DNA from: Chrysemys picta bellii
Taxonomy: Eukaryota > Chordata > Testudines > Emydidae
Reading direction: 5' to 3'
Assembly (NCBI RefSeq): GCF_011386835.1
Contig: NC_088791.1
Location: forward strand, 127,758,943 to 127,822,942
DNA length: 64,000 bases
Shown here in pieces: positions 27,723 through 50,024 of this stretch. A model generated the notes under the pieces. It ran no database searches and was not told the DNA's origin. It saw nothing but the letters and a program-made list of their open reading frames with translations. Numbering within the stretch: position 1 is the first letter of the stretch; every line of letters starts with the position of its first letter. The translations under genes and the position numbers were made by a program.

Positions 27723-30548
27723 ATGGGATTCTGGGAGGAAGCACAAGCAGGAGAGCACAAGAGGGGAGGACTCCTGTCTCATACTGAGAAAGAGGGACGA
27801 TCGATGAGTTATCTTAAGTGCCTATACACAAATGCAAGAAGCCTGGGAAACAAGCAGGGAGAACTGGAAGTCCTAGCACAGTCAGGGAACTATGATGTGA
27901 TTGGAATAACAGAGACTTGGTGGGATAACTCACATGACTAGAGTACTGTCATGGATGGATATAAACTGTTCAGGAAGGACAGGCAGGGCAGAAAAGGTGG
28001 GGGAGTTGCATTGTACGTAAGAGAGGAGTATGACTGCTCAGAGCTCCGGTATGAAACTGCAGAAAAACCTGAGAGTCTCTGGATAAAGTTGAGAAGTGTG
28101 AGCAACAAGGGTGATGTCGTGGTTGGAGTCTGCTATAGACCACCAGACCAGGGGGATGAGGTGGACAAGGCTTTTTTCTGGCAACTAGCAGAAGTTGCTA
28201 GATCGCAGGCCCTGGTTCTCATGGGAGACTTTAATCACCCTGATATCTGCTGGGAGAGCAATACAGCAGTGCACAGACAATCCAGGAAGTTTTTGGAAAG
28301 TGTAGGGGACAATTTCCTGGTGCAAGTGCTGGAGGAACCAACTAGGGGCAGAGCTTTTCTTGACCTGCTGCTCACAAGCAGGGAAGGATTAGTAGGGGAA
28401 GCAAAAGTGGATGGGAACCTAGGAGGCAGTGACCATGAGATGGTCGAGTTCAGGATCCTGACACAAGGAAGAAAGGAGAGCAGCAGAATACGGACCCTGG
28501 ACTTCAGAAAAGCAGACTTTGACTCCCTCAGGGAACAGATGGGCAGGATCCCCTGGGAGAATAACATGAAGGGCAAAGGGGTCCAGGAGAGCTGGCTGTA
28601 TTTTAAAGAATCCTTATTGCGGTTGCAGGAACAAACCATCCCGATGTGTAGAAAGAATAGTAAATATGGCAGGCGACCAGCTTGGCTAAACAGTGAAATC
28701 CTTGCTGATCTTAAACGCAAAAAAGAAGCTTACAAGAAGTGGAAGATTGGACAAATGACCAGGGAGGAGTATAAAAATATTGCTCAGGCATGCAGGAGTG
28801 AAATCAGGAAGGCTAAATCACACTTGGAGTTGCAGCTAGCAAGAGATGTTAAGAGTAACAAGAAGGGTTTCTTCAGGTATGTTAGCAACAAGAAGAAAGT
28901 CAACGAAAGTGTGGGCCCCTTACTGAATGAGGGAGGCAACCTAGTGACCGAGGATGTGGAAAAAGCTAATGTACTCAATGCTTTTTTTGCCTCTGTCTTC
29001 ACGAACAAGGTCAGCTCCCAGACTGCTGCACTGGGCAGCACAATATGGGGAGAAGGTGACCAGCCCTCTGTGGAGAAAGAAGTGGTTCGGGACTATTTAG
29101 AAAAACTGGACGTGCACAAGTCCATGGGGCCGGATGTGCTGCATCCGAGGGTGCTAAAGGAGTTGGCGGATGAGATTGCAGAGCCATTATTTTTGAAAAC
29201 TCATGGCGATCGGGGGAGGTCCCGGATGACTGGAAAAAGGCTAATGTAGTGCCCATCTTTAAAAAAGGGAAGAAGGAGGATCCGGGGAACTACAGGCCAA
29301 TCAGCCTCACCTCAGTCCCTGGAAAAATCATGGAGCAGGTTCTCAAGGAATCAATTATGAAACACTTAGAGGAGAGGAAAGTGATCAGGAACAGTCAGCA
29401 TGGATTCACCAAGGGGAAGTCATGCCTGACTAACCTAATTGCCTTCTATGATGGGATAACTGGCTCTGTGGATGAGGGGAAAGCAGTGGATGTGTTATTC
29501 CTTGACTTTAGCAAAGCTTTAGATACGGTCTCCCACAGTATTCTTGCCGCCAAGTTAAAGAAGTATGGGCTGGATGAATGGACTGTAAGGTGGATAGAAA
29601 GCTGGCTGGATCGTCGGGCTCAACGGGTAGTCTAGTTGGCAGCCGGTTTCAAGCGGAGTGCCCCAAGGGTCGGTCCTGGGGCCGGTTTTGTTTAATATCT
29701 TTATTAATGAACTGGAGGATGGTGTGGACTGCACTCTCAGCAAGTTTGCAGATGACACTAAACTAGGAGGCGTGGTAGATACACTAGAGGGTAGGGATCG
29801 GATACAGAGGGACCTAGACAAATTAGAGGATTGGGCCAAAAAAAACTTGATGAGGTTCAACAAGGACAAGTGCAGAGTCCTGCACTTAGGACGGAAGAAT
29901 CCCATGCACTGCTACAGACTAGGGACCGAATGGCTAGGTAGCAGTTCTGCAGAAAAGGACCTAGGGGTCACAGTGGACGAGAAGCTGGATATGAGTCAAC
30001 AGTGTGCTCTTGTTGCCAAGAAGGCTAACAGCATTTTGGGCTGTATAAGTAGGGGCATTGCCAGCAGATCGAGAAACGTGATCGTTCCCCTTTATTCGAC
30101 ATTGGTGAGGCCTCATCTAGAATACTGTGTCCAGTTTTGGGCCCCACACTACAAGAAGGATGTGGAAAAATTGGAAAGAGTCCAGCGGAGAGCAACAAAA
30201 ATGATTAGGGGTCTGGAGCACATGACTTATGAGGAGAGGCTGAGGGAACTGGGATTGTTTAGTCTCCAGAAGAGAAGAATGAGGGGGGATTTGATAGCAG
30301 CCTTCAACTACCTGAAGGGGGGTTCCAAAGAGGATGGAGCTCGGCTGTTCTCAGTGGTGGCAGATGACAGAACAAGGAGCAATGGTCTGAAGTTGCAGTG
30401 GGGGAGGTCCAGGTTGGATATTAGGAAACACTATTTCACTAGGAGGGTGGTGAAGCACTGGAATGCGTTACCTAGGGAGGTGGTGGAGTCTCCTTCCTTG
30501 GAGGTTTTTAAGGCCCGGCTTGACAAAGCCCTGGCTGGGATGATTTAG
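27723..30548 (+). pseudogene. CR1 ORF2: APE endonuclease-reverse transcriptase, three lesions
   Basis: The likely start is ATG 27804 (M-S-Y-L-K-C-L-Y-T-N-A-R-S); an upstream ATG is at 27723. The endonuclease has T-N-A-R-S (27834), I-T-E-T-W-W (27907), L-M-G-D-F-N-H-P (28218), and the G-S-D-H catalytic His block (28425). The RT has N-Y-R-P-I-S-L (29287), L-D-F-S-K-A-L-D (29503; usually A-F-D), [11 protein letters not shown] (29663) and the catalytic F-A-D-D (29746). Lesions: TAG at 27939-27941 where the family has Trp (same frame continues), a frameshift around 29180-29230, and a second frameshift/deletion at about 29630. The C-terminal part after RT is open to 30548. It makes the nick, primes at the target and copies the element RNA. 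Not functional in one piece. Confidence 0.93.
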
Positions 30549-31560: not shown

Positions 31561-32215
31561 TGTGCAGCCATATGCTCAGTGTTACAATATAGGCAACTGA
31601 GGGCAGGGGAATCAAACTCACAATTTATATTGGCTACTGACCATCTCCAGAAAGGTCAGTACCAAACAGTTCACTGATAGGGTTACCATTCGTCCGGATT
31701 TACCCGGACATGTCCTCCTTTTTGTGCTAAAAATAGCGTCCGGGGGGAATTTGTAAATCACTCAAAATGTCCGGGATTTCCCCCCTCCCCCAGCAGAGCA
31801 GAGCGAGCGGCTGGGAGGGCTGCAGGGAAGTCACGGGCTGGACTCCGGAGCAGCTGTAGAGGAGCTCCACCCTGCATTCTGAGCCGGCAGCTCTCCCCTG
31901 CAGCCCGGCTCCGGCAGCACTGTGCAGGGCCAGGGACCGGGTTTTGTTGTGCTGGGGAGCACAGCCACGTGTCCGGCTCGCACAGAGCCCAACACCCTGT
32001 TCTGAGCAGCAGGGTAAGGGGGCCAGGGGGCAGGAGAAGGGGCAGGGAGGTTCTGGAGGGGGCAGTCAAGAAACGGGGGGAGCTTTTTGGGGGGAGTGGA
32101 GAAAGTTTTGGGCAGTCAGGGTACAGGCAGGGGGTAGGGTCCTGGGGGGCAGTTGGGGGGGGTCTTAGGAAGGGGCAGTTAGGGGACAAGGAACAGTGAG
32201 CCCGGTCAATAGGGG

Positions 32216-32454
32216 CAACCCCTACCAAGATCTGAGCCTTTTCTCACACGCCCGTTAGAGCTCGACATTATGCTGTTTGGGACCCCTCTTTGAGGAAAGC
32301 CTCTGGATTGCAAGTCCAACCGCTACCTCCTTGTGGTGAGAGTTGGTAACTGGCTTGGATAGCCAGGCGGATTGCGGAGGACGAACCCACATCCCACATT
32401 CAGTGGGGTGTGGGACGGGGTTGGGCAGCCCCATATGGTGCCACATGGATGCCC
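32216..32454 (+). other. R2 5' UTR, structured leader (possible ribozyme)
   Basis: Short stems are visible here: cctc/gagg at 32285-32295, gga/tcc around 32305-32317 and ccca(c)/gtggg near 32393-32412. R2 5' ends in other animals encode an HDV-like self-cleaving ribozyme; whether this leader folds that way cannot be told by eye. Stated only as the region to test. Confidence 0.35.
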
Positions 32455-32638
32455 CCCGGTAAGGGTAGCCTCCCCCAGGTATGGGTTGACTCCCCCTGGT
32501 AAGGGTTAGATTCCCCCTGGTAAGGGTAGCCTCCCCCAGGCACGAGTTAGTTTCCCCCTGGAAAGGGTAAGTTTCCCACAGGTACGGGTTAGTTTCCCCC
32601 TGGAAAGGGTTAGTTTCCCCCTGAGAAGGGTAAATCTT
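32455..32638 (+). repeat. Nine 20-21-bp tandem repeats before the R2 start codon
   Basis: Units resemble CCCCCTGGTAAGGGTTAG-TTT. I count about nine, ending 6 bp before the ATG at 32645. The later units are exactly 21 bp and stay open in the ORF frame from 32510 on, giving a heptapeptide series (E-R-V-S-F-P-L type). An in-frame TAG at 32507-32509 closes the frame further upstream. Confidence 0.85.
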
Positions 32639-32644
32639 TTAGCT

Positions 32645-35600
32645 ATGGAAAAAAGTAATTTATATTTTTATACCGGATTGGCGCTGGACCGGGTTAATAA
32701 CGCCCCCGCTGTTGGCTTTGATGCCCCGGCCGACAGTGTTAAATATATTAGGGGTGTGATCAGGGTCGCTGGACCAATGGATAAAATGGTGTGGACTATA
32801 ATGAAGTCTCATGAGAATGAGAGTGAGAATCAAGTCCTCCCAGTGGAGCATGGAGAGGAGGTAGAGGAGAATGTTTGTGATGATCGTGGTGAGAAGATTT
32901 TATCTATCTTACCGATGGTTTTTACAAGGGACACTTTTAATGATTTAACTATGGACAGTTTTAATCCAGCTTTTAAGTATTTAAGTACATTTGATGATCC
33001 ATATGTTAGGGAATCGGGATATCTTAATGCTCATTTAATTAATGGGTCTAGTTTATTAAATAGTTTTAGACCAAGTACTGATTTTAATAGGGATCGTAAT
33101 AAGGATCTTAACAGTACTGGTAGTAATATAAATATATTAGAAAGTAGTTCGTGGAAGGATGGGGTTTTTTATTTAGAGTATCCCGTTGATAGTTTTAATT
33201 GTCCAATATGTCCCCAGATATTACCAACATTTGGTAAATGGGCCAAACACATTAATGTGGTTCATAAAAGTAAAGCCATACGAGTTGTATGTAGTAAATG
33301 TGGAAAATCTTCTCAATATCGTAATATAGCTTGCCACTACCCCAAGTGCATACCCAAGAAGGCGGATACCCCAATGAAGAGCCATACGTGCTCGGTCTGT
33401 GGGCTTGGTTTTCATACTAGATCTGGATTGAGCCAACACTGTAGACATAGACACCCTGCTGTGAGGAATGAGCAAAGAAAAGAAGATATGGCTGCTAAAA
33501 GTAAGATCAAAGAGGGATCGATTAGATCTCGTATATGGACCAAAGATGAGGTTGCGCAGCTTATACAGTTGGAAAGGAAATATATTGGGAAAAGGAATAT
33601 AAATAAATGTATTGAGAGCGAGATGAGGACCAAAACGAATAAACAAATATCAGATAAAAGACGAGAATTAGCAAAGAAGAAGTTAGTGGTAACAGGAGAT
33701 AGGGAGGAAGTGACTGAGGTAGAGGACATTAGAGTAAATATATTAGAAATTCCGCCCCCAAGAGAGAGGATTTTACCACTAAAAGGACATCCAGAAGTGG
33801 ATTTAGTGGAGAAAATATGTGAACGGGGAAAACAAAGTAGGGAGGGAAGAGAAATAATAAATAGTTTAGGGGATATTGAAGGATTATTAAAGGAGGATTT
33901 AACAAAAGCTCTCGGATGGGCAATGTTGGAAAAATTATGTTATTCATTAGTAGAGGGAAAGGACCCTAGAAATGAAAGTCAAATAGAGTTGAGGAATAAA
34001 GGAAAAGGGAAGATGAGAAAGGAGGGGAGAAGGAAGCAATTTAATGCAAGTAGGAGATATGCTACAAAGAAAGCTAAGTATAAATTCTATCAACAATTAT
34101 TTGATAAGGATAGAAGAAGATTGACTCGCATTATAATGGGAGAGCCAGATAAGGCTAAGTGTGCTATCCCTATGAAAGAAATTGAGGAATACTATGTAAA
34201 TATTTTGGGAACAATTGGACATGGTAATATGATAGGGTGGCCATCATCCACAGAGAATGCGGATAATGATATATTAATGAATCCGATCTCTGTGGATGAG
34301 ATTAGAATAGCTTTAAGAGAAATAAGAAAAGATAGTGCTCCTGGCCCAGATAAAGTAAAAGTGAGCAATTTGTGGGATATTTTTAATTTAGACTCCTTAA
34401 TACTTACAAAAATTTGTAATATATGGTTTCTAAATAGACAGGTACCAGATGAATTTAAGAAAAATAGAACGATTTTAATACCAAAGACACAAGATGAGGA
34501 GGAAATGAAGAAGTTAACATCTTGGAGACCATTGACAATTGGGTCAGTTTGGATTAGAATCTATACCAAAATATTAGCAAAAAGACTGGTGGAAACAGTT
34601 AAGATATGTAGTAGACAAAAAGGGTTTATATCCGCCCCTGGGTGTGAGGAAAATATTGCTATATTAGATAATTTGATTAAAGGGGCTAAACGAAATGGGA
34701 ATGAAATTGCAATAGTGTTTGTAGATCTGGCTAAAGCATTTGATTCTGTGGGACACGGACATATAATAGCCGGGTTGAGAAGATTTGGTATAGATGAACA
34801 TTTTATAGATATTATTAGGGACCTTTATGATAATTGCACAACTAGGGTATGGGTGGGTGATGAAGCTACTGAGTCTATTTTAATTAGGAGGGGGGTCAAG
34901 CAGGGTGACCCGTTGTCCCCAATTTTGTTTAATATTGCTATGGATCCCCTTTTAACTAGATTAGAAGTAGAAGGAAGTGGTTTTTATGTTAAGGGTAATA
35001 GTGTCACGTCATTGGCTTTTGCCGATGATGTGGCAATTTTAAGTAGCTCATATAAAGGAATGATCAAAAATTTGGGTATCTTAGAGGAGTTTTGTAAAAA
35101 TACTAATCTCTCTGTTAATGTGAAGAAAACGAAAGGCTTTCATATTTTAACTAAACATAAAACCTATGTAGTTAATCCTAAGGATAATTGGCAGATAGGG
35201 TCAGAGGAGATTGAATATGTTCAACCAGGGGATTTTGAAAAATATTTAGGAGCTAGAATAGATCCCTGGATAGGTGTAGGGGGACCGGTACTTAAAGAAA
35301 AATTGAAAGATTGGAGTGAGAATTTAATTAAGGCCCCATTAAAACCGGCCCCAAAAATATTAATTTTACAGACATACATCTTACCGAAGCTATTTTATAA
35401 TCTTCTTTTAATAGAACCCCCTTTTAATCTTTTAGATGATCTTGATGTGTTAGTTAGAAAAATAGTTAAAGAGATTTTACATTTACCTCAGTGTACCACA
35501 GATGGGATATTTTATTCTAGAGGTAGGGATGGTGGTTTAGCTCTCACTACGTTTAGTGTGCAAATCCCAAATATGTTAATTCGTAAATGGAGGAGACATA

Positions 35601-36427
35601 TTGTCTCGAGAGATGATTGGATGGACCTATCTTATCTAAATGCAGGAGAAAATCTTGTGGATAAAATATTGTTATTTAGTGCAGTAACATCTCATCCCAA
35701 GAAATGGAGGGAAGAGGAATTTTTAAGATGGTCGGAACTGAGATGTCAGGGAATAGGGATAAAATATTTTAAAAATGATTTAATTAGTAATTCGATTTTT
35801 AGAAACTCTAGTAAAGTTAAATCGTCAGTGTATATCGCAGCATTGCAGCTTAGGGCAAATATTTATCCTACTAGGGAGACATTAGCAAGAGGAAGAGGAG
35901 GTGTGAATGCTCTTTGTAGATGGTGCGGTAAAGTGCGGGAGACTGTTCCCCATATCTCAGGACAATGTTATAAGACTAAGAATGCTAGGATAAAAAGGCA
36001 TAATAGAGTAGTGTCTGCAGTTGTAGATAAGGTTGGTAAATTAGGGTGGAAGGCAATAATAGAGCCCCATTTGAGAAATAGTAAGGGTGAGTTAAGAAAG
36101 CCGGATATTATATTTATAAAAGGAGATACAGCAGTGGTGGTTGATGTTACAGTGCGATGGGAGGATAATGCCGGAAGTTTGGAACAAGCCCACAGTGAGA
36201 AGGTGGCTTATTATCTTGAGTTAGAGGAAGAAATTAAAAACTTAACGGGAGGTAAAAATATCCACTTCTTTGGTTTTGTGCTTGGGGCGCGTGGCAAGTG
36301 GAGTGAAGGGAATAATGATTTGTTACAATTATTGGGAATGGACAGAAGTAAAAATTTTAAGGAGAGTATATGTAGACTTGTTTTATATTCCATTATTGGT
36401 ATGATGGCTATATTCAGTGACAGGTAA
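32645..36427 (+). CDS. R2-type retrotransposon protein (ZnF-Myb-RT-RLE), intact
   Basis: 1260 residues, in the usual range for R2 proteins. In order: three zinc fingers, CCHH (C186, C189, H202, H207), CCHC (C216, C219, C230 or H231, C235) and CCHH (C249, C252, H265, H270), the three-finger arrangement of R2 clade A; a Myb-like segment (about 295-342, W298); a reverse transcriptase (about 550-880) with V-F-V-D-L-A-K-A-F-D (D694), Q-G-D-P-L-S-P and F-A-D-D (D794, D795); a C-terminal zinc knuckle (C1091, C1094, H1103, C1108); and a restriction-like endonuclease with K-P-D (D1154) and V-V-D-V-T-V (D1167). The fingers and Myb bind target DNA; the endonuclease nicks it and the RT primes there. The ATG is the first in frame, but the frame is open upstream to 32510. 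No stops or frameshifts. Functional status unknown; sense is opposite to WNT7B. Confidence 0.95.
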   Translation: MEKSNLYFYTGLALDRVNNAPAVGFDAPADSVKYIRGVIRVAGPMDKMVWTIMKSHENESENQVLPVEHGEEVEENVCDDRGEKILSILPMVFTRDTFNDLTMDSFNPAFKYLSTFDDPYVRESGYLNAHLINGSSLLNSFRPSTDFNRDRNKDLNSTGSNINILESSSWKDGVFYLEYPVDSFNCPICPQILPTFGKWAKHINVVHKSKAIRVVCSKCGKSSQYRNIACHYPKCIPKKADTPMKSHTCSVCGLGFHTRSGLSQHCRHRHPAVRNEQRKEDMAAKSKIKEGSIRSRIWTKDEVAQLIQLERKYIGKRNINKCIESEMRTKTNKQISDKRRELAKKKLVVTGDREEVTEVEDIRVNILEIPPPRERILPLKGHPEVDLVEKICERGKQSREGREIINSLGDIEGLLKEDLTKALGWAMLEKLCYSLVEGKDPRNESQIELRNKGKGKMRKEGRRKQFNASRRYATKKAKYKFYQQLFDKDRRRLTRIIMGEPDKAKCAIPMKEIEEYYVNILGTIGHGNMIGWPSSTENADNDILMNPISVDEIRIALREIRKDSAPGPDKVKVSNLWDIFNLDSLILTKICNIWFLNRQVPDEFKKNRTILIPKTQDEEEMKKLTSWRPLTIGSVWIRIYTKILAKRLVETVKICSRQKGFISAPGCEENIAILDNLIKGAKRNGNEIAIVFVDLAKAFDSVGHGHIIAGLRRFGIDEHFIDIIRDLYDNCTTRVWVGDEATESILIRRGVKQGDPLSPILFNIAMDPLLTRLEVEGSGFYVKGNSVTSLAFADDVAILSSSYKGMIKNLGILEEFCKNTNLSVNVKKTKGFHILTKHKTYVVNPKDNWQIGSEEIEYVQPGDFEKYLGARIDPWIGVGGPVLKEKLKDWSENLIKAPLKPAPKILILQTYILPKLFYNLLLIEPPFNLLDDLDVLVRKIVKEILHLPQCTTDGIFYSRGRDGGLALTTFSVQIPNMLIRKWRRHIVSRDDWMDLSYLNAGENLVDKILLFSAVTSHPKKWREEEFLRWSELRCQGIGIKYFKNDLISNSIFRNSSKVKSSVYIAALQLRANIYPTRETLARGRGGVNALCRWCGKVRETVPHISGQCYKTKNARIKRHNRVVSAVVDKVGKLGWKAIIEPHLRNSKGELRKPDIIFIKGDTAVVVDVTVRWEDNAGSLEQAHSEKVAYYLELEEEIKNLTGGKNIHFFGFVLGARGKWSEGNNDLLQLLGMDRSKNFKESICRLVLYSIIGMMAIFSDR

Positions 36428-36716
36428 AGATCCCGGAGTTTCCATTCCGTGTATCTTGCCAAAACTAAATTTTAGCTATTTTGGTTTCCATGCTCTAAAT
36501 TTTCAAATTTTTAATATTGTTTTGAACATTAACATATTTAGTGTTATTTAATATCTGCCCTTCAATAGAATGGTTTTAACTATATAATAAATACTTATTA
36601 ATGGATGAAATTCCAATTTAAATTATTAGTTTATTTTTTTTTTTAACTACTGGATGTGGATGCGGACTGGCCGCGTATAGTAACCAGGAAAGGGCAGGTA
36701 GTCACGCCTGTACATA
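36428..36716 (+). other. R2 3' UTR
   Basis: AT-rich for the first 200 bp, then a distinct tail ('gatgcggactggccgcgtat', 'gtcacgcctgtacataaa') before the G-rich host repeat. In R2 the 3' UTR RNA is the structure bound by the reverse transcriptase. No poly-A and no 28S sequence at the junction. Confidence 0.75.
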
Positions 36717-37305
36717 AATAGGGGGTGGAGTCCTGGGGGGCAGTTAGGAGCAGGGGTCCCAGGAGGGGGCGGTCAGGGGACAAGGAGCAGGGGGTGGGGG
36801 GTTGGGAGTTCTGGGGGGGGGCTGTCAGGGAGCAGGAGTGGGGAGAGGGATTGGAGCAGTCAGGGGACAGGGAGCAGAGGGGTTTAGATGGGTTGGGAGT
36901 TCTGGGGGGGAGCTGTTAGGGGGCAGGAGTGGGGAGAGGGATTGGAGCAGTCAGGGGACAGGGAGCAGAGGGGTTTAGATGGGTCGGGAGTTCTGGGGGG
37001 GACTGTCAGGGGGTGGGGAGTGGTTGGATGGGGCGTGGGAGTCACAGGGGTCTGTCTGGGGGTGGGGGTGTGGATAAGGGTTGGGGCAGTCAGGGGACAA
37101 GAGGCAGGGAGGCTTAGATAGGGGGTGGAGTCCTGGGGGGCAGTTAGGGGCAGGGGTCCCAGGAGGGGGCAGTCAGGGGACAAGGAACGGGGGGAGGGTT
37201 GGGGATTCTGGGGGGGCGGGAAGTGGGAGGGGCAGGGGCGGGGCTAGGGCGGGGCTCCTCCCGTCCTCTTTTTTGCTTGCTGAAATATGGTAACCCTATC
37301 ACTGA

Positions 37306-42392: not shown

Positions 42393-43532
42393 CATATGAA
42401 CCCTTCATTCCTCACATGGGCAGTGAATAAAGATATGTCATTCTTTCACAGTGTTACAAAAATCACTGATTGAACACCACAGGCCAAATTCGACTTTTGG
42501 TTCCCCTATGTGACTGACTACCGTTATTAAAATCAAGCACAGATATCACCGAGATCAGAATTTGACCCAGGGAAGATATATTACAGCTACACAAAGGAAG
42601 GGGACTGTAGTATTTTCAGGGACGTGTGGGACTATATGCTTTCTTTCTAGCACATTGATTCAATGCAACATTGTGATAACCAGATACAACAAACCCATAC
42701 ACTTGCATGTAAACAACAAACTGTGCAATTGATGGTGCTAGGGCAGCTTTTGAGGGACAGATAAAGGGAAAGATATCTGACCAGATGACAGTGACAATGT
42801 CAATGTTGGAGATATAGGCAGTTATTTTGTAAGATCTCTCCTCATGAAATAATATCACACATAGAATTGGTGGAAAGTGATAACACATGATACTGACTAT
42901 CCTGTAAGAGTTTGTTAGGCCATGTCCTATATACCAAGTTTTTTTTTTTTAATGTTTTTCACTTCAGATAATTTGTAGCGTCATCTTCACATGATAAAAA
43001 TCTGAGTAGAATATTTTTGTGTCACTTCTCTGTACTGGATGGTCAGCTGGGTATCATAGGCAATGTATTGCTAACAGCTAATTGAGATTCTCCTATTGCT
43101 GTTGGGGTCTGTGTTTTTGGAGCTGATTTCAGTTCCATTCCCAGCATGACTGTGGAATTCTGACTCGTCAGAGTGTGCAGCACAGTAACAATCCTGAAGT
43201 CCTAAATGCCTACAAATTTGTTATGAAATTATGGGATGAAATTGACGCAGGTGACTGCTGCCCCTACAGAATATTCTAGTCATTTTCATGTGTGGATTGG
43301 TATGAATAATGAAAGACACAACCTAGAAATCTCTAGATGTTTTCAATTACTAAAAATAGGGTTAGATAAGATCAGAAAAAGTGCCCCTGTTGTTCTGGAG
43401 GGTGCGTTGGTTTATTTTGTGTGGCGTGTAAATGCCTTATAGCATTACATCACTAAAGCACTGCAAGGGGAGAGCCAAAAGGCGAGCAGTCCCAATTTAT
43501 TATTATTAACACTATTTTAAAGAATCCCTTAC
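42393..43532. other. Intron next to the WNT7B exon, no gene
   Basis: The 1.1 kb downstream (in gene sense) of the exon. A poly-T run is at 42942-42951. No obvious repeat in the 300 bp next to the splice donor. Possible intronic regulatory DNA cannot be judged by eye. Confidence 0.45.
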
Positions 43533-43759
43533 CTACTCGAAGCTCTTGTCCAAAGACTGTTTTCTCTCCCAGCGCTGAGCAGTTCCACCTACCATAGCGG
43601 AACTGATATTGGCATTCATTGATTCCCATCTGTGCCCCTTCTCCGATCACTATGATGGCATCAGGGCGGCTCTGGCAGATCGCTCGTTGCCGAGGGGCCA
43701 AGCCTGGGATTTTGTTGCAGATTATATTTGCTCCTAAAGCCACCACAGATGACAAAGCT
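43533..43759 (-). CDS. WNT7B: WNT7B exon 2 (Wnt ligand), complete internal exon
   Basis: A 227-bp exon encoding 75 complete residues ([10 protein letters not shown] through G-Q-E-L-R-V). The acceptor is a pyrimidine tract then CAG (AG at 43760-43761 complement), entering in phase 2. The donor is G|GTAAGG (GT at 43531-43532 complement), leaving in phase 1 within a Gly codon. Wnt proteins are secreted, lipid-modified ligands for Frizzled receptors; this part holds the start of the mature N-terminal domain, with cysteines in N-I-I-C, A-I-C, N-E-C and W-N-C. WNT7B rather than WNT7A is indicated by [15 protein letters not shown] and E-K-T-V-F-G-Q. The residue before G-R-W-N-C is Tyr, where I recall Phe in human WNT7B and Asn in WNT7A. 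No frameshift or stop. The signal-peptide exon and exons 3-4 are outside the window. Confidence 0.97.
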
Positions 43760-49297: not shown

Positions 49298-50024
49298 TAG
49301 GGTTACCATATTTTGTGCCTCCCAAAGGAGGACATTCCACGGGGCCCCGCCCCCAGCCCAGCCCACGCCCCCCCCTGCCCCAACTCCGCCCCCTCCCCAA
49401 AGTCTCCGCCCCCTCCCCTGCTTCACGCGAACATTTGAGTCGCGGGAAGCCTGAAGCAGGTAAGGGGGAGTGTGGGGGGAGGAGGCGCGGCCCAGGCTGG
49501 CCCCGGCCCTGGGGTGCCGGCCCCGGGCCCGACCCCCGGCCTGCCCAGCACTGCGGCCCCCGACCGAGCACCCCGGCCCCTGGCACCGCCGGTCCCCAGT
49601 CTGGCCCCCGGCACCGCCGGCCCGTCCCCCGAGCCCCCGGCCCGGCCTGGCACCGCCGGCCCATCCCCCGAGTCCCCGGTCCCTCCGGCCCCGCCCCGGC
49701 GGAGCCCCCAAGCTCCCGGCCGAGCCCCCGAGCCCCCAGCCCGGCCCCGGCGGAGCCCCCGAGCCCCCGGCCAGGCACCGCACCGCCGGCCCGGCCCCGG
49801 AGCCCCCGGCCCGGCCCGGCCCCGCTCCGCCGGCCCGGCCTGGCCCCCAAGCCCCCGGCCCGACCCCCGAGCCTCCGGCCCGGCCCCCGAGCACCCGCAC
49901 GGCCGGCCCGGCATGTCCCGATTTTCCCGGACATGTCCGGCTTTTTGGGCTTTCCCCCCGGACGGGGATTTGGAGCCCAAAAAGCCGGACATGTCCGGGA
50001 AAATCCGGACGTATGGTAACCCTA
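49298..50024 (-). mobile_element. TIR element, TAGGGTTACCAT family, copy 2, CpG-rich
   Basis: 727 bp with termini TAGGGTTACCAT and ATGGTAACCCTA, bounded by a perfect 7-bp duplication GTAAAGC (49291-49297 and 50025-50031). Relative to copy 1 it is inverted: its right end has the 'ccggacatgtccggg' block that copy 1 carries on its left. The centre (49500-49910) consists of degenerate CCCCGAGCCCCCGGCCCGG-like repeats, very rich in CpG. A long palindrome lies at about 49929-50000 (ccggacatgtccggcttttt and inverse). The 190-240-codon open frames in four readings are compositional artefacts. Confidence 0.92.

Follow-up and report, generated by a model that had tools for sequence, protein, structure and literature searches.

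The stretch of DNA analysed here is a 64,000-nucleotide segment of Chrysemys picta bellii contig NC_088791.1 (positions 127,758,943 to 127,822,942, forward strand), hereafter the window. It carries an R2-type retrotransposon inserted in a DNA transposon with terminal inverted repeats (TIRs), close to a Wnt exon (Table 1). The retrotransposon is one member of a multi-copy family that, with a single exception among the readable 3′ junctions, is found at one motif in one transposon family. Its 5′ end retains a short resemblance to the 28S ribosomal RNA gene in which R2 elements normally reside.

Table 1. Features of the retrotransposon, its target and its surroundings in the window.
Feature	Position	Strand	Remarks
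R2-type retrotransposon, 5′-truncated	32196..36718	+	3′ end ...GTACATAAA; full-length copies extend about 115 nt further upstream
Core of hepatitis delta virus (HDV)-like ribozyme (P2, P3/L3, P1′, P1.1, P4, J4/2)	32314..32382	+	P1′ at 32338-32344
Tandem repeat in 5′ untranslated region, units of about 20 and about 41 bp	32452..32632	+	
Open reading frame (ORF), 1260 aa: three zinc fingers, Myb, reverse transcriptase, zinc knuckle, restriction-like endonuclease	32645..36427	+	
3′ RNA module: possible pseudoknot, GAAAGG hinge, 3′ stem, ACATAAA tail	36652..36718	+	Pseudoknot by inspection
Downstream half of occupied proximal target, TAGGGGGTGG...	36719..36734	+	
Second target copy in same host, empty: GGCTTAGA^TAGGGGGTGG	37111..37128	+	Junction position 37119
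Host TIR DNA transposon, ends TAGGGTTACCAT...ATGGTAACCCTA	31678..37298	+	hAT-like by 7-8 bp duplications; TCACTGA on both sides
Wnt exon, Wnt-7 type	43531..43725	-	Pfam wnt; top PDB match Wnt-7a

The ORF protein combines a reverse transcriptase (RT) and a restriction-like endonuclease (RLE) with N-terminal zinc fingers and a Myb segment, and is related to known R2 proteins. Its zinc fingers, at residues 186, 216 and 249, are three in number, as in A-clade R2. W298 lies in a Myb-type segment recognised by alignment to 9nl2 and 9dou, the RT carries FADD at 792–795 (Pfam RVT_1, 6e-35), and a zinc knuckle at 1091–1108 is followed by an endonuclease with KPD at 1152–1154 and then VVDV. The top structure matches are the R2 proteins of Platysternon (turtle) and Taeniopygia (finch). 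A first-pass annotation, made from the sequence alone, had called the uninterrupted 1260-codon frame and each of these motifs, and all of them are borne out. It had also placed the start of the element at 32208 and proposed an 8-bp target duplication, AATAGGGG. The window copy in fact begins at 32196, directly behind host sequence, and the duplication is refuted. Each of the 20 other copies covered by 7-kb stretches has the 5′ AATAGGGG, near 32208, within the element, since the family reaches further upstream there, as far as GGCTCTCTTAATGGCTCTCC when full-length; the 3′ AAATAGGGG is made of the A-rich tail of the element and host TAGGGG.

The genome (2.37 Gb) was searched with the first kilobase of the element, and the 40 best-scoring of 231 candidate places, the window's own included, were scored. 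Thirty-nine of them are 97–100% identical and one 92%, and they are spread over ten contigs. The other 39 places, cited below by L number where needed, were read as 7-kb stretches (20) or as junction pairs (19); their existence disposes of the earlier idea of a lone copy. Over the ORF, 18 aligned copies, window included, differ by 0.77% on average (0.42–1.12%); L009, L010 and L017, whose 3′ part lies outside the stretch, are left out of this alignment. Each of the 18 copies has 5–15 private changes. Their singletons (132 nonsynonymous, 51 synonymous, 6 stop) match the neutral expectation of 0.695 : 0.268 : 0.037, so the private changes bear no sign of selection. The 1260-codon frame is intact in 6 of 21 copies, the window's among them, and broken in 15. 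The history of the family is one of a recent burst followed by neutral decay, with no selection on resident copies. The family is young and possibly still active. Recency, which the first-pass annotation had read from the intact frame, is thus supported by the small distance between copies; the intactness of the window copy itself is partly luck.

One 98% identical Chrysemys picta bellii protein, P0001, is named a PDE3B (phosphodiesterase) isoform in the public record, evidently an annotation artefact. It was considered as an orthologue of the window copy and rejected, P0001 lying on C4 and the window on C1 beside the Wnt exon. In viral_contigs, the search for relatives gave no pattern match.

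A feature of this family is the constancy of its insertion site. The 3′ junction could be read in 34 of the 39 other copies (L009, L010, L017, L051 and L064 yielded none), and hence in 35 with the window. In 33 of the 34 (34 of 35 with the window) it falls in the host TIR transposon and reads ...ACATAAA^TAGGGGGTGG or nearly so. The element ends in CGCCTGTACATAAA in 32 of the 35, window included, and with one base changed in L022, L027 and L059; the letters after ...CCTGTACA are TAAATAGG in 33 copies, TAAATAGA in one and TAAATTGG in one, the last being a copy outside the host. On the upstream side, the flank is host transposon in 37 of 39 copies, the exceptions being L040 and L016. Two positions within the host are used: by best match, 23 copies occupy the proximal target (36719 in the window) and 9 the distal one, with 1 unclear. 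The empty target reads GGCAGGGAGGCTTAGA^TAGGGGGTGGAGTCC. The copy outside the host, L040/L059 (one copy, at C2:196.2 Mb), lies at TAAA^TTGGGGTGG (TAAA^TTGGGGTGGGAGG), a sequence similar to the target's downstream half.

None of the 35 junctions is in 28S, a count with no dedicated 28S search behind it. The suggestion, in the first-pass annotation, of a lineage with a changed target is supported. Set in the same register, 28S reads GACTCTCTTAAGG^TAGCC and shares with the new target the TAG after the presumed nick as well as A at −3, G at −2 and T at −5 (by inspection, and modest as evidence).

The 5′ end of the family likewise resembles 28S. Downstream of the truncation, the window copy holds the core of a putative HDV-like ribozyme, with P2 (GUCC..CCGC/GCGG.GGAC), P3, L3, P1′, P1.1 (GG), P4 (CUGGCU/AGCCAG) and a C-bearing J4/2; at a relaxed threshold, Rfam places an HDV-like ribozyme at 32310–32379. 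A ribozyme descriptor run on both strands of the 64 kb matched twice, the other match being without a 28S match. The 5′ strand of P1 is missing in the window copy, because that copy is 5′-truncated. Among the 20 other copies read as whole stretches, L3 is TCCTCGT in 19, and P1′ is GAGAGTC in 19, L022 differing at the first base. The window has T at 32332 (L3) and 32344 (P1′), both CpG positions at which the other whole stretches keep C in 19 of 20 and 20 of 20, respectively; these two positions of its ribozyme core have decayed. An earlier reading from the window's own P1′, GAGAGTT, of a 28S-resident lineage with the window copy as a stray was withdrawn, as the dispersed family carries its own P1 strand.

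P1′ GAGAGTC is perfectly complementary to the 28S sequence GACTCTC, at positions −13 to −7 relative to the R2 site. The true 5′ end of the element, GGCTCTCTTAATGG in 28 of 39 copies, GACTCTCTTAATGG in L035, shorter or altered in 7 and missing in 3, resembles the stretch of 28S that directly precedes the R2 site, GACTCTCTTAAGG. The two share an exact run of 9 nt, a length reached by 51 of 200,000 shuffles, and the longest run shared with the new target is 4 nt. GGCUCUC from this end pairs at 7 of 7 positions with GAGAGUC, one pair being G-U. In L035, the 5′ end GACTCTCTTAATGG is identical to 28S over GACTCTCTTAA; its first bases may be host-derived.

R2 ribozymes that use 28S as P1 and cleave at −13 are described, in the available excerpts of PMC3774820, for Nasonia vitripennis (shown) and Tribolium B (predicted). 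In a model from the same excerpts (Figure 8), a duplicate of 28S sequence at the 5′ end of the element comes to serve as P1, and the cleavage site thereby moves to the element end. The turtle family appears to have undergone such an internalisation and then to have adopted a new target, and the 28S complementarity of its P1′ would be a relic of former 28S residence.

The 3′ end of the RNA also looks like that of A-clade R2. By inspection, a possible pseudoknot (GCGG..CCGC and CTGG..CCAG) is followed by GAAAGG, the stem GCAGG/CCTGT and ACATAAA. The turtle and finch R2 complexes have a pseudoknot, a GAAAAG hinge and a 3′ stem in this order (PMC12180492, available portion). The nested fold of the module, pseudoknots left out, has z = −1.5, which is not significant on its own, so the argument for the module is the order of its parts; the sequence is unchanged in most copies and hence shows no covariation.

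We conclude that the family is very probably a young, multi-copy retrotransposon of the R2 lineage, which was probably once an R2 of 28S and is now site-specific for GGGAGGCTTAGA^TAGGGGGTGG in an old hAT-like TIR transposon. We propose that the protein nicks the bottom strand before TAG, as R2 does in 28S (AAGG^TAGC), and that the nick primes reverse transcription of an RNA with an A-clade-R2-like 3′ end. Transcription would start from or near the host transposon, and the HDV-like ribozyme would free the 5′ end of the RNA with GGCUCUC, at the element's own 5′ end, as its P1 strand. This strand would derive from 28S GACUCUC, earlier the P1 of a 28S/R2 co-transcript, and the internalised scrap of 28S may have made the lineage independent of co-transcription with rRNA and so permitted the move to a new target. 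Thus, the lineage probably left the rRNA genes by absorbing 28S sequence into its 5′ end and became a parasite of a DNA transposon, with intermediate steps preserved in the 28S-complementary P1′, the 28S-like 5′ end and a new target that shares TAG at the nick.

Several points weigh against this account. The ribozyme scores 16.3 bits, below the Rfam gathering threshold of 44; its descriptor also matched once elsewhere in the window; its core folds only weakly better than shuffles (z −1.7); and the P1′ pairing of the family was judged by inspection. The 28S-like 5′ end is short at 9 nt, and in many copies its initial GG is inseparable from host GGGAGG; the GG recurs behind different upstream sequence in L016, L031, L036, L038 and L040. 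Because L040/L059 lies outside the host, site specificity is not absolute. The junction evidence comes from the 40 best-scoring of 231 places, with 5 of 39 others lacking a 3′ junction, and rDNA is frequently collapsed in assemblies. Finally, it is the 28S relic, together with the general phylogeny of R2, that indicates which way the move went.

The strongest competitor, which we regard as unlikely, is that the lineage is still 28S-specific and has spilled over, in its many dispersed copies, to a look-alike site, CTTAGA^TAG in place of CTTAAGG^TAG. It would account for the perfect complementarity of P1′ to 28S GACTCTC, for the 5′ end of L035, which reads GACTCTCTTAA, and for two features kept by the new target, A at −3 and TAG behind the nick, and the limit on the 28S count given above leaves it some room. 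Against it, the readable 3′ junctions include none in 28S, and 34 of 35 at a single non-rDNA motif amount to specificity; moreover, the element now carries a P1 strand that a 28S resident would find superfluous.

A second possibility is a composite DNA transposon, in which one R2-type insertion into a TIR transposon was spread by cut-and-paste with its flanks inherited. Nearly all copies do lie in one host family, and wherever both host ends are visible the host has a 7-8 bp duplication of its own, as such spread would produce. The ages of host and insert contradict it: host ends diverge by 20% on average on the left (300 nt, 15 copies) and 10.7% on the right (150 nt, 17 copies), whereas the element diverges by 0.77% in the 12 copies compared alongside them, so the host copies are old and the insertions young. 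Inherited flanks also do not explain the use of two host positions, the copy L040/L059 outside the host or the variety of 5′ junctions, among which five copies (L021, L042, L045, L046 and the window) are 5′-truncated. The insertions are independent and target-directed, and the composite, already contradicted, is very improbable. Repeated target-primed reverse transcription fits, because there are two target positions, variable 5′ junctions, 5′ truncations and one stray insertion.

The 5′ junctions show further variants. Element 5′ ends are repeated at the junction in L023 and L041, and wholly or partly repeated in a GGCTTAATGGCTCTCT-like group (L011, L013, L014, L019, L029, L039 and L047); repeated 28S-derived 5′ ends, similar to these, are reported for R2. 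In L016, the host and the 5′ end of the element are separated by about 130 nt of A-rich, unrelated sequence, possibly a template jump onto another RNA.

Two further explanations have next to no probability. A single off-target copy of canonical turtle R2 with an 8-bp duplication, the other option of the first-pass annotation, would suit the R2 domain structure and the location outside rDNA (no Rfam family reaches gathering level in the 64-kb window), and is refuted by the 39 other places, by an identity of about 40% to canonical turtle R2 and by AATAGGGG being no duplication. A domesticated R2-derived gene kept intact by selection would suit the intact frame of the window copy and of 6 of 21 copies overall, and is contradicted at the family level by the near-neutral singletons and the 15 broken frames.

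The host of the window copy was correctly described beforehand as G-rich sequence between TAGGGTTACCAT ends. Its duplications, in the 12 host copies with both ends visible (window included), are 7 or 8 bp long and all different, and it is on these lengths that we label the host, an old, multi-copy transposon, hAT-like. A second TIR element with TAGGGTTACCAT ends lies at 49298–50024, has a 7-bp duplication, GTAAAGC, and contains no R2-type insertion. Of the probable Wnt gene, one exon, presumably of WNT7B, is confirmed, and the retrotransposon is antisense to this gene. A broken long interspersed nuclear element with endonuclease and RT reading frames, which we take to be CR1-like, occupies 27951–30548.

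The position of the family among R2-type proteins was assessed with trees of 76 and 33 rows, chosen from the best 120 of 517 protein matches and midpoint-rooted, with no R4, NeSL, Utopia or R2Bm rows as outgroup. The element is nested among R2-type rows in both trees, these outgroup clades being absent. Together with P0001 it groups with shark P0003, P0024 and rows P0002 and P0011 (support 97, then 98/96), and canonical turtle, bird and teleost R2 are split from this lineage with 100/100 in the 33-row tree. The phylogenetic check proposed in the first-pass annotation thus places the protein apart from turtle and bird R2, with shark sequences. The protein is about 40% identical to P0010, the canonical R2-type protein of this turtle; since both are present, two R2-type lineages coexist in Chrysemys picta bellii, and the element is no off-target copy of an active turtle R2.

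If our account is right, a target switch has taken place among elements noted for staying with 28S. R2 serves as the textbook example of a target kept over long periods, and new tools for RNA-templated gene insertion are built on it; a vertebrate R2-type element whose target is another one, defined and multi-copy, would form a natural pair with it for locating the parts of the protein that read the target. L040/L059, as a natural off-target insertion, may hint at which target bases matter. The 28S-like 5′ end makes the published cleavage-shift model (PMC3774820, as excerpted) directly testable and ties it to a change of target. The family would also be a vertebrate example of a transposon that finds a safe harbour in another.

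Compared with canonical vertebrate A-clade R2 (R2Pm of Platysternon and R2Tg of Taeniopygia; 9nl2 and 9dou), the family has the same set of protein domains, a 3′ module that may be of the same pseudoknot–hinge–stem type (partly by inspection), a junction before TAG and imprecise 5′ junctions. It would function in the same way, through a ribozyme-processed RNA, a 3′ module, a nick before TAG, target-primed reverse transcription and the imprecise 5′ joining that its junctions display. It differs in its target, a TIR DNA transposon and not 28S, in its separate lineage and in a P1 strand borne by the element. The Tx1L element of Xenopus, found inside Tx1D, is likewise a non-LTR (long terminal repeat) retrotransposon that targets a DNA transposon, but it belongs to another clade, with an endonuclease of apurinic/apyrimidinic (APE) type, whereas the turtle family is of the RLE type and R2 lineage.

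In the literature searched, mostly without subscription journals, we found neither a report of this family, for which a Repbase entry may exist, nor one of an R2-lineage element with a DNA transposon as its target. 'Transposons' are among the listed targets of non-LTR elements (PMC4640811, in part), and R2 retrotransposons are described as having invaded a W-chromosome region of a softshell turtle (PMC9951354, in excerpt). In Nasonia vitripennis and Tribolium R2 B, as far as the excerpts of PMC3774820 go, P1 lies in the 28S gene (only 4 nt of it in Nasonia), whereas the turtle family carries it at the 5′ end of the element itself.

The strict definition of R2 used by Hassan et al. (PMC13188248, accessible part) leaves the family out, because the 28S site is not its target: none of the readable 3′ junctions is at the conserved 28S site. 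Of a self-cleaving 5′ ribozyme, the family has the fold and the sequence pattern, with a score below the Rfam threshold. For the R2 lineage, the accessible parts of PMC5035012 and PMC7650587 report as targets 28S, 18S and other 28S sites, or no specificity. The R2NS families and cockroach BLAG described there are, like the turtle family, R2 relatives outside 28S, but they are reported as non-specific or randomly distributed; the variable flanks without a common target that mark R2NS are not seen here, where 34 of 35 junctions share one motif. Closer parallels in the same sources are R8 (18S) and R9 (another 28S site), members of the R2 superclade that likewise changed to another specific target, although these targets are still rRNA genes and that of the turtle family is a transposon. 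The turtle family would relate to R2 in the same way as R8 and R9, except that its target lies outside the ribosomal genes.

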